A stretch of 52,074 bases of DNA from contig CAISEW010000029.1 in NCBI GenBank assembly GCA_903884455.1, forward strand, positions 1 to 52,074. The letters run 5' to 3'. This document shows positions 12,490-15,093 of the stretch, one piece after another. A program made the translations under genes and the position numbers. The notes below the pieces were generated by a model that was given only the letters and a program-made list of their open reading frames with translations, was not told where the DNA came from and searched no databases. The DNA is from an uncultured Chloroflexota bacterium. Lineage in GTDB: Bacteria; Chloroflexota; Dehalococcoidia; GIF9; AB-539-J10. The stretch's first letter is position 1, and the number at the start of each line of letters is the position of its first letter.

Positions 12490-12565
12490 GGGGCTGTAGC
12501 TCAATCGGGAGAGCGTCTGACTGGCAGTCAGAAGGTAGTGGGTTCGAATCCCATCAGCTCCACCA
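12490..12565 (+). tRNA. tRNA-Ala (GGC), integration target
   Basis: GGGGCTG (12490-12496) pairs with CAGCTCC (12555-12561). The D arm is GCTC...GAGC, the anticodon arm TCTGA-CTGGCAG-TCAGA with anticodon GGC, and the T arm GTGGG-TTCGAAT-CCCAT. The discriminator A and encoded CCA are at 12562-12565. The 3' half from 12519 is duplicated exactly at 15015, so the gene was rebuilt by an integrating element. Confidence 0.95.
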
Positions 12566-12570
12566 GCCTT
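12519..12570 (+). repeat. attL: left copy of the 52-bp direct repeat
   Basis: Starts GACTGGCAGTCAG in the anticodon arm of tRNA-Ala and ends AGCCTT, 5 nt past the CCA end. Identical over all 52 positions to 15015-15066. The flanking bases differ on both sides, which defines the limits. The crossover is expected within the anticodon-to-T-arm segment, the usual target of tyrosine integrases. Confidence 0.9.
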
Positions 12571-13374
12571 ATAGCTAAAAAGTTCACAAGCTCCCAGGTT
12601 CAAAAGTTCACAACCGAGCTGCTGGAGAAGTTCATCTCTTCCCGTCCTGAAGGCTTGAGCAAGAGAACAATAGAGTTTTACCAATATACACTCACCAACT
12701 TTGTTGGCTATCCAATGACTCCTGATGGTGTTGGCTCTTATTTGAAGTCACTCACTTGCAGGAATGCCAAGCTCAGGTTCTATCAGAGCCTTAAAATCCT
12801 CTTCAGATGGTTGCATCGTAACGCATACATACCAGAGAATCCTATGGAGAAGGTATCGCCTCCCAAAATACAAAAGAAGCTCCTACCTGCGATAACAGAG
12901 GAACAGCTCCAAGTTCTCTTAGAGTATTGTCAAAACGATAGAGATATAGCAATGATTAGCTTCCTCTGGCATTCAGGTGTAAGGGTGAGCGAAGCAGCAA
13001 GGGTTAGAGCTAAGGATTTCAACTGGCATGAAGGCACTGTCATTGTCCTGGGTAAGGGTAACAGGTTTCGCAAGGCCTTAGCTGGCAACGGCATGGTGAG
13101 GCAATGGTTTAGTGAGCATGACAGCTTTGAATTGACTGCAGAGGGAATACAGACAATCCTCAAGATACTATCGAGAGAGACGGGTATCCATTGTAATCCC
13201 CATGCATTTCGAAGAGGTTTCGCTGTTCACCAAGTTAAGTCAGGTTTGTCAACTCGGGTGGTTCAAGCCTTAGGTGGCTGGGAAACTATTGCAATGGTTG
13301 AACGGTATTCGAAATCACTCACCTTTGATGATGCTCTCCAACTCTATAAGCAGGTCAACGGCAGTGCGGTTTGA
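12538..13374 (+). CDS. Tyrosine recombinase (integrase) of the tRNA-Ala element
   Basis: Catalytic residues, counted from the GTG at 12538: Arg149 in HSGVRVSEA, Lys173 in LGKGNRFRK, His222-xx-Arg225 in NPHAFRRGF, Trp248 in place of the second His (LGGWE, a common variant), and the nucleophile Tyr257 in MVERYSKS. An N-terminal SAM-like domain spans about 25-100. In the integrated state the first 11 codons are tRNA sequence, and the GTG has no SD because it lies inside the T arm. The reading frame is open through the whole tRNA. The same frame enters the repeat from the HTH gene at the other end, so the natural start is probably that of the HTH gene in the circular form. Confidence 0.92.
   Translation: MGSNPISSTSLIAKKFTSSQVQKFTTELLEKFISSRPEGLSKRTIEFYQYTLTNFVGYPMTPDGVGSYLKSLTCRNAKLRFYQSLKILFRWLHRNAYIPENPMEKVSPPKIQKKLLPAITEEQLQVLLEYCQNDRDIAMISFLWHSGVRVSEAARVRAKDFNWHEGTVIVLGKGNRFRKALAGNGMVRQWFSEHDSFELTAEGIQTILKILSRETGIHCNPHAFRRGFAVHQVKSGLSTRVVQALGGWETIAMVERYSKSLTFDDALQLYKQVNGSAV
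12578..12613 (+). repeat. Paired GTTCACAA direct repeats next to attL
   Basis: AAAAGTTCACAA occurs at 12578-12589 and again at 12602-12613, 24 bp apart. The core GTTCACAA reappears as a pair at 14469-14476 and 14490-14497, with a variant ATTCACAA at 14980-14987 close to attR. Paired short repeats on both sides of the core are how arm-type sites of lambda-like integrases are arranged. The assignment is inferred. Confidence 0.45.
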
Positions 13375-13494
13375 GGATAGCTTGAGGTTCGTCCATAGCC
13401 CAATCCAAAGGGCATACCTCGTATTGATATTCGGATACCTGTCGCTGACCTGTCTGGATTCTGGAGTCTTGCTAGATTAGGGAGCTCAACGGCA

Positions 13495-13950
13495 CTAACG
13501 CCGTTGCTCTCGTTTCCTCATTTCATTGTAGAGGTATTCAAACCACTCGAATATTTCTGGTCGGTTTCTGATTTTTCTCAATTCCAGTGTTATGTTTTTC
13601 ATTTTTTCCCATGTCCATTTAATGTCAGTACTGAACATGTCATCGACTAGCTCTATGTCGATGAGTTTTCTTTTTAGGAGAATGCCAATTCCTTCAAAAA
13701 ACAGGCCGACTGCTGTCACTTCAGCAGTGCCATACTTTTCGTGGTAATTACCATAGTCTTTTCCGTCTCTGTTCAAAACCTCTTCCAATATCTTCTGGAA
13801 TTCAAGACTGTTGAATTGTGAGTAGAGTCTCATTATAAGGTCCGTTTGTCTTACTTTGGTCTGATGTCTAATCTGAAGGATGTAGTAAATAGCTGCTACA
13901 AACACACCAGCAGAGGCAATAGCAATAGAAACAGTCCGTATGTCAACCAT
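13495..13950 (-). CDS. Small membrane-anchored protein of the element, unknown function
   Basis: The start is taken at the ATG at 13950 (MVDIRTVSIAIASAG), with AGGTG about 9 nt upstream. Three codons of extra open frame are ignored. One TM helix at about 5-24 is followed by a charged helical cytoplasmic part (about 30-150) with LYSQFNSLEFQKILEEVL and FFEGIGILLKRKLIDIELV. The layout resembles DUF4760-type proteins found in phages and islands, but I cannot confirm the family. It converges on the integrase: the gap holds an inverted repeat (AACGGC...GCCGTT, 13488-13505) that may end both transcripts. Confidence 0.65.
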   Translation of the reverse strand: MVDIRTVSIAIASAGVFVAAIYYILQIRHQTKVRQTDLIMRLYSQFNSLEFQKILEEVLNRDGKDYGNYHEKYGTAEVTAVGLFFEGIGILLKRKLIDIELVDDMFSTDIKWTWEKMKNITLELRKIRNRPEIFEWFEYLYNEMRKREQRR

Positions 13951-14013
13951 CACCAACACCTATCAATTGTAAAAGAAATGTGGTCTATTTCGTTTCACCA
14001 CAAACTTTCCGCA

Positions 14014-14349
14014 CTACACGCCCAGTTCTGGCTTCTCAACCCAGACTTCTCTTTTGAACGAATTTGGAACACGGACGGACTCCCAATCCTTCACGAACTT
14101 GGCTTTGACCTTAACTAGTTCTGCATCTTTCTCCATTGGTTTGTCGTATGCCTTCTGATCTTGATATTCGTCAATCCACCTCCACTCCTCAACATCTGAA
14201 CCTTTAGTCTCCACGATAAAAAGCCGAGAGCGTGTAAAGTGGAATTTATTTCGGTGGGTTCTTATATAGTGCATCCATGCAGTCCACATTTCAAGGTGTT
14301 TCTTGCTGTTCTTTTTGGGAACTCGCCATCTAGCTATCTCACAAAGCAT
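14014..14349 (-). CDS. Small protein of the element, possibly a dimeric alpha/beta barrel
   Basis: 111 residues. The pattern MLCEIARWRV, then a helix (KKHLEMWTAWMHYIRTH), then SRLFIVETK and EEWRWIDEY resembles the beta-alpha-beta-beta start of dimeric alpha/beta-barrel (ABM/NIPSNAP-like) proteins. This is shape only, not a family match. AAAGGAGGTGA, a perfect SD, lies 6 nt before the ATG. It is upstream of, and probably co-transcribed with, the membrane-anchored protein. Function unknown. Confidence 0.6.
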   Translation of the reverse strand: MLCEIARWRVPKKNSKKHLEMWTAWMHYIRTHRNKFHFTRSRLFIVETKGSDVEEWRWIDEYQDQKAYDKPMEKDAELVKVKAKFVKDWESVRVPNSFKREVWVEKPELGV

Positions 14350-14468
14350 TTTGAATCACCTCCTTTAATTGAATTATACCAGTAGCCAACCACTAACGGA
14401 AGACATATGCAGAGGATACACTCTTAACTTTGGGGCATGAGTGTCAATCAGAAGAACATAGCTAATCT

Positions 14469-14497
14469 GTTCACAAGTCAAGGCTATATGTTCACAA
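14469..14497 (+). repeat. Second GTTCACAA pair
   Basis: GTTCACAAG at 14469-14477 and 14490-14498 are 21 bp apart, two helical turns. This is the same octamer as the pair beside attL. It would suit cooperative binding of the integrase or of the element's HTH protein. Confidence 0.45.
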
Positions 14498-14759
14498 GGC
14501 AAGGGGGTGTCCCCCAGGTACATTGGTGCTACCTACGACTAGACACCGAAAGATTGGCTCGTAGAAAAATCTAGTCGGGCTTAGAATCTGGAGAGTAAAT
14601 ATTCAAATATAAGGACTTGCGTATAGTGGTGAGTTACAGTCCTTATTTATTCTATCCATCCCTTGGTCATATGCCAACCGCCGAAATCGCAGTATCTTAG
14701 CCACCACGGTCAACTGCTATTAAAGGCCAAGCAGGTTAATACCACGCTTTCTCAGATGA

Positions 14760-14775
14760 CTCTTCTTAAGAAGAG
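14760..14775. promoter_or_regulatory. Perfect 16-bp palindrome, probable operator
   Basis: CTCTTCTTAAGAAGAG at 14760-14775, about 75 nt before the HTH gene. A full two-fold symmetric site in front of an XRE-type gene suggests autoregulation. No direct evidence. Confidence 0.45.
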
Positions 14776-14850
14776 GTAACAGTAGAATGATAGTCGGCTG
14801 ATAGCTGGCTAGCTTTGCAAGTCCAGCTTTGAAAAACAAAAGGAGGCAAA

Positions 14851-15093
14851 ATGAAGAGACTAAACCAGGCACAGATTGCAAAGGACTTAGGTATTAGCAA
14901 GAGCTATTTGAGTATTATAATCAGTGGCCAAAGGAAGTGTCCATCTGAGTTTATAGAGAAGCTGCAATCAATCCCAGGAATTCACAAAGTAGTGAACAAT
15001 CAGCTATGGACAAGGACTGGCAGTCAGAAGGTAGTGGGTTCGAATCCCATCAGCTCCACCAGCCTTTTCTCAACTTTGATTACCACAGGGTAA
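14851..15093 (+). CDS. XRE-type HTH protein reading through attR
   Basis: Residues about 6-30 form a compact Cro/XRE helix-turn-helix (QAQIAKDLGISKSYLSIIIS). AAAGGAGG lies 4 nt before the ATG. After residue 55 the frame enters the 52-bp repeat (codons for GSQKVVGSNPISSTSL) and ends 8 host-encoded residues later, giving 80 residues. In the excised circle the codons after the repeat would instead be those of the integrase (from 12571, in phase), producing a 339-residue HTH-integrase. As found here it could act as a stand-alone repressor. The last 25 residues are repeat- and host-derived. Confidence 0.75.
   Translation: MKRLNQAQIAKDLGISKSYLSIIISGQRKCPSEFIEKLQSIPGIHKVVNNQLWTRTGSQKVVGSNPISSTSLFSTLITTG
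15015..15066 (+). repeat. attR: right copy of the 52-bp direct repeat
   Basis: Identical to 12519-12570. Only the 3' half of the tRNA is present (no acceptor 5' strand or D arm), so this copy is not a tRNA gene. It is translated in frame as the C-terminal part of the HTH protein. Confidence 0.9.

Follow-up and report, generated by a model that had tools for sequence, protein, structure and literature searches.

A probable self-splitting tyrosine integrase in a small integrative element of Dehalococcoidia

We analysed a 52,074-nt stretch of DNA (here called the window) from the genome of an uncultured Chloroflexota bacterium (1.56 Mb, class Dehalococcoidia) and detected a 2,496-bp element inserted in a tRNA-Ala(GGC) gene and bounded by 52-bp repeats. 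With a probability that we put at roughly 0.8, this is a small integrative element that carries attP within the coding sequence of its own tyrosine integrase, such that integration splits and silences the gene and thereby locks the element in place. As the landing site lies inside the integrase gene, insertion into the tRNA gene would cut the integrase from its start and, in the window, also from an XRE-type helix-turn-helix (HTH) domain.

The element and its divided integrase gene

The two copies of the repeat are identical over exactly 52 bp (Table 1) and, given the position of the tRNA-Ala(GGC) gene, correspond to the 3' part of that gene plus 5 bp. The empty site was found in four genus mates (L202, L204, L207 and L213), where tRNA-Ala(GGC) directly joins the sequence that follows attR in the window, the junction being located upstream of the HPF gene.

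The initial annotation had claimed that the XRE-type HTH frame and the integrase frame cross the two repeats in the same codon phase and would form, in a circle, a single 339-residue protein with a good Shine-Dalgarno (SD) sequence. Both claims held on inspection: the stretch from the ATG at 14851 to the end of the distal repeat measures exactly 72 codons and, joined to 12571-13374, yields an uninterrupted ORF of 339 amino acids preceded by AAAGGAGG. The circle of the element would hence encode one XRE-HTH/tyrosine integrase of this length. Its catalytic part is a tyrosine recombinase (PF00589), while its HTH is a short XRE domain that barely passes the Pfam HTH_3 threshold (23.2 vs 23 bits), the match being clearer in relatives.

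After integration the integrase frame contains no stop as far back as 12448, and a scan for starts in this frame found no ATG, GTG or TTG with a ribosome site after the repeat. The sole in-frame candidates were GTG 12538, inside the tRNA gene, and TTG 12655, inside the core-binding domain. The predicted loss of start and SD on integration is thus borne out in the window, where the catalytic part has neither start codon nor ribosome site; a few relatives show weak 4-base matches, and weak internal starts or leaderless translation may serve the integrated catalytic part. This placement of att inside the integrase ORF also explains why annotated integrases of this family start with translated tRNA sequence. 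At the other end the HTH part persists, as originally described, as an 80-residue ORF, which stops at 15093.

Two further loci of the same genome deserve mention. A second copy of the element (L047, G000:C5:50905) lies beside tRNA-Gly and has suffered an internal deletion, which leaves the N-terminus of its core directly joined to the C-terminal part. A distant integrase (L048, G000:C9; 30% identity) is in frame with the 3' end of tRNA-Lys, so the layout may extend past the integrase family of the window. No close intact integrase homologue was present among the matches found in this genome.

Table 1. Positions of the features of the element within the window
Feature	Coordinates	Strand	Basis
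tRNA-Ala(GGC), target gene, intact on integrase side (attL)	12490..12565	+	ARAGORN; empty site in genus mates
Integrase-proximal att copy, 52-bp repeat (tRNA 3' part + 5 bp)	12519..12570	+	Repeat comparison
Catalytic part (Int-C), tyrosine integrase, R..K..HxxR..W..Y	12571..13374	+	Pfam Phage_integrase 2.9e-20; catalytic motif; start scan
Arm-type site candidate P'1, GTTCACAA	12582..12589	+	Motif scan
Arm-type site candidate P'2, GTTCACAA	12606..12613	+	Motif scan
Cargo ORF, DUF4760	13495..13959	-	Pfam PF15956 1.7e-13
Cargo ORF without family	14014..14349	-	ORF list and family searches
Further GTTCACAA pair, 21 bp apart	14469..14497	+	Motif scan
Ribosome site AAAGGAGG of HTH/fused ORF	14839..14846	+	Precedes ATG 14851
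N-terminal integrase part: XRE-HTH and linker, 72 codons to att end	14851..15066	+	HTH_3 23.2 bits; in-phase fusion
Arm-type site candidate P, imperfect inverted repeat aTTCAC-N6-GTGAAc, inside HTH part	14980..14997	+	Motif scan
Distal att copy (attR)	15015..15066	+	Repeat comparison

Relatives of the window and a sister clade with a second layout

Relatives were gathered by family-wide and class-wide searches and by a scan of named genomes, which together returned dozens of related integrases, mostly abutting a tRNA gene into which their frame continues. Matches of a phylum search (400 genomes) were confined to the class Dehalococcoidia, and phage and plasmid collections gave no match above about 28% identity among the matches listed. 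All family members seen are integrated copies in draft genomes. A search for an XRE-HTH fused to this integrase, which the initial annotation had suggested for free and integrated elements alike, was successful for the latter, i.e. integrated single-ORF fusions occur in a sister clade (see below), but yielded no free circle: a contiguous HTH-att-integrase arrangement was found neither in viral contigs (distant integrases only) nor in the genomes searched, and none of the contigs checked had overlapping ends.

For elements with both ends on one contig we mapped the repeat and read all three phases upstream of its distal copy. The XRE-HTH frame enters att in the phase of the integrase at 13/13 distal copies (the window; L029 twice; L040, L041, L043, L183, L184, L191, L194 and L195; and L216 and L219, both taken from named genomes), while the remaining two phases mostly close within 30 codons. 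Random phase would give this result with a probability of (1/3)^13, a figure that applies to independent elements, whereas these are related. The tRNA targets of the relatives comprise Arg, Leu, Phe, Val, Glu and Met, read in sense or antisense, and the frame through att has therefore been preserved despite changes in the att sequence itself. All 18 of 18 reconstructed fused ORFs (13 window-like and five sister-type) are open with an intact catalytic motif; L170 was excluded from this count, its repeat being only 18 bp and the join yielding a stop. A few relatives are assigned to the family on the strength of exact repeats of 26-96 bp. Neither of the two observations that the initial annotation had named as contrary to its proposal, i.e. 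a frameshift in the repeat or homologous integrases that start downstream of it with their own SD, was encountered in the relatives.

L029 (G038:C49 = L229 JAUWQY010000044.1) is a tandem array in which att occurs three times and the HTH part twice; its contig title gives a coverage of 858, possibly a multicopy form. Three elements at tRNA-Lys (L034, L037 and L166) have a longer N-terminal region and neither of the arm motifs described below, perhaps a third layout.

On one side of a branch with support 100/99 lies a sister clade whose HTH is located to the integrase side of att and shares a continuous ORF with the catalytic domain (single-ORF members L160, L161, L162, L169, L170, L171, L172, L173, L175, L179 and L196). 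L176, a further candidate for a natural fusion, was dropped, as its HTH is out of frame with the integrase. HTH_3 reached or exceeded its threshold in four of the five sister-clade proteins scanned, together with Phage_integrase in the same protein. An AlphaFold model of one such fusion (mean pLDDT 78, C-terminal end poor) displays an N-terminal helical HTH followed by the core-binding and catalytic domains, and its best Foldseek matches were XerA and the integrase of mycobacteriophage Brujita. These natural single-ORF fusions are good evidence, and the strongest we have, that HTH and integrase form one protein. In the sister clade, the frame that enters the distal att in phase is a leader of some 10-15 codons, which includes a start codon and often reads KxVKQxVKQ; integration severs this short leader only. 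The feature common to both layouts is an att inside the ORF, with integration stripping start and ribosome site; loss of the HTH is limited to the layout of the window, and release of a repressor is not common to all. One sister-clade element (L169:1388-10955) lies in a single-contig genome (G132). Its genes include that of a small terminase subunit (phrog_51, 5.6e-19), one with a TOTE-type primase domain and one for a NERD nuclease, and in gene content it looks like a phage satellite.

Candidate arm sites, proposed mechanism and alternatives

In each element a short motif occurs at least twice on either flank of att; it is GTTCACAA in the subfamily of the window and GTTAAGCAA or GGTAAGC in others. 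Nearly every element had a GTTCACA-like or GCTTAAC-like sequence as its top 7-mer around att in a de novo count. GTTCAC was present on the integrase side in 21/21 elements of the window's subfamily; outside it, TTAAGC or GTAAGC occurred on this side in about two thirds and GTTCAC in one, exact copies being absent there from part of subfamily B and from part of the sister clade, and neither the GTTCAC- nor the TTAAGC-type motif was found in the three tRNA-Lys relatives. Four of the five copies of GTTCACAA in the window fall inside the 2.5-kb element. The excess per element is modest (the level of the window was reached by 19/300 shuffles), and the strength of the motif lies in its repetition across related, non-independent elements. 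Since the copies fall in each of the three codon phases and point either way, it is the DNA that is conserved, not a by-product of protein sequence.

GTTCAC accompanies an HTH with a recognition-helix region of the type SY(L/F/I)S(M/I)(I/V).SGQ, and TTAAGC one of the type S(Y/F)(L/I)SQ(V/I)(K/R).(G/S)K. In lambda-type integrases the N-terminal domain binds arm sites. From this general role, and because the motif follows the HTH subtype, we infer that the HTH is probably the arm-binding domain of the integrase. The sequence evidence points to arm binding rather than repression as its main role, as the HTH of the sister-clade fusion is never released and the sites track the HTH. An additional pair of GTTCACAA copies, 21-22 bp apart, was observed in four elements (the window, Table 1; L029, oriented, 1457-1479; L219, 1030-1051; L216, 2131-2153), usually directly past the integrase stop and, in the window, between cargo and HTH; these pairs are candidate iterons or an operator.

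We propose that, in the circle, a single gene equipped with a ribosome site would make a fused protein consisting of the XRE-HTH, a linker encoded through the tRNA-derived att core, a core-binding (SAM-like) domain and the catalytic domain. The HTH would grip the short sites that flank the core in tandem on either side (GTTCACAA in the subfamily of the window), and the fused integrase, bound to arms and core, would insert the element into the tRNA gene, a recombination that would sever its own gene inside the linker. The catalytic part would then lie silent behind the tRNA, devoid of start codon and ribosome site, and the 80-residue HTH orphan at the other end would possibly still be made. With its integrase off, the element would be locked in until the full-length integrase of a related circle acts in trans.

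A different outcome, namely that integration frees a truncated HTH which represses the element or blocks incoming relatives, is tentatively possible. The HTH ORF of the integrated element still has a start and SD and stops shortly past att, the domain weakly resembles phage repressors (PHROG repressor, 1.7e-6; immunity repressor 8bny, 1.2e-4), and palindromic GTTCAC-N6-GTGAAC-like sites adjoin it. Against such a switch, the sister clade sheds its leader with no HTH freed, no consistent operator was found upstream of the HTH start among relatives, and L042 and L030 have an open integrase frame but a decayed or deleted HTH, so that a free HTH is not always kept. A role of the freed HTH as a repressor is therefore possible but not general. 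It is similarly speculative, and in our opinion doubtful, that these elements constitute a bacterial class of self-splitting integrases, separate from the archaeal one, in which integration shuts off the recombinase and the freed arm-binding domain, by occupying the arm sites, guards against both excision and incoming relatives.

The integrated integrase might alternatively be driven by the tRNA promoter and a weak start in or near the tRNA, with excision at a low rate as in ICEKp1. In the window, as in several relatives, the integrase follows the tRNA immediately and in the same orientation, and GTG 12538 is in its frame; the integrated state of ICEKp1 uses a tRNA-Asn promoter (PMC13023037), and expression of archaeal Int(C) from the tRNA promoter has been inferred (PMC8371274). 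We regard this as unlikely, given that in-frame starts after att have no ribosome site either in the window or in almost any relative of its type, and that the tRNA is antisense to the integrase in L043, L184, L191, L194, L195 and L216, where its promoter is unable to serve the integrase.

It is very improbable that all copies are dead ends and the layout has no present function. About one integrase copy in five is disrupted by a stop or frameshift, as expected of a gene that is useless after integration, and remnants are common in any prophage family; but frames are otherwise intact, the HTH parts are under coding constraint (dN < dS; two pairs without alignment left out), and short end branches between genera, together with differing cargo and targets, argue for continuing movement. 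Finally, mobile elements often carry small XRE genes, but the idea that an independent one beside attR runs into the repeat in frame by chance is refuted by the phase conserved at several different tRNA genes and by the single-ORF HTH-integrases of the sister clade.

Comparison with known systems

The self-splitting that we propose for the element has its closest parallel in the archaeal 'suicidal' integrases of the SSV type, in which attP lies near the 5' end of the gene, a tRNA gene is the target, the protein is split into N and C parts and excision requires an intact integrase in trans; recombinases that disrupt their own gene were described as exclusively archaeal in a 2021 review (PMC8371274). 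As in SSV1/SSV2, pTN3 and pT26-2, the elements described here have attP in the integrase gene, a tRNA target and a catalytic part without a start. They differ in being bacterial (Chloroflexota), in carrying a Xer-type PF00589 domain instead of PF16795 (Phage_integr_3), which reached at most 0.14, in one relative, in an N part consisting of an XRE-HTH, and in a second layout that splits off only a leader. Given the presence of PF00589, the family works like the archaeal suicidal integrases but does not belong to them, the same principle having apparently a separate origin. Some pNOB8-like archaeal integrases also have HTH domains, for which a regulatory role has been proposed (PMC8371274).

Bacterial systems share single traits with the window. 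In the integration-dependent immunity of mycobacteriophage BPs, attP likewise lies inside a reading frame with an HTH regulator and integration truncates the protein, although the gene that holds attP is that of a separate repressor and the integrase gene is left intact (PMC4557955). The int genes of myxophages Mx8 and Mx9 encode bacterial tyrosine integrases with attP in the coding sequence (PMC6070905, PMC4383910), but at the 3' end, such that C-terminus and specificity change while start and domains are kept. Recombination of ICEKp1 also alters what drives int and favours the integrated state (PMC13023037), whereas its int coding sequence is whole and the promoter alone changes. The Dehalococcoides ssrA islands (DsiB), from the same class, have an integrase gene that overlaps an att copy, yet encode a serine recombinase with the overlap at the 3' end (PMC3146451). 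Lambda-type integrases share an N-terminal DNA-binding domain and arm sites flanking the core; in the present family this domain is an XRE-HTH and, in the clade of the window, is separated by att. A bacterial suicidal or split integrase was not found in the literature searched, which covered few subscription papers.

The self-splitting principle thus appears in one class of bacteria, where the recombinase is a different one, and seems to have evolved on at least two occasions. It would provide control of directionality without an excision factor; its two sister layouts allow the split to be compared, and the copy in the single-contig genome G132 makes a laboratory test realistic.
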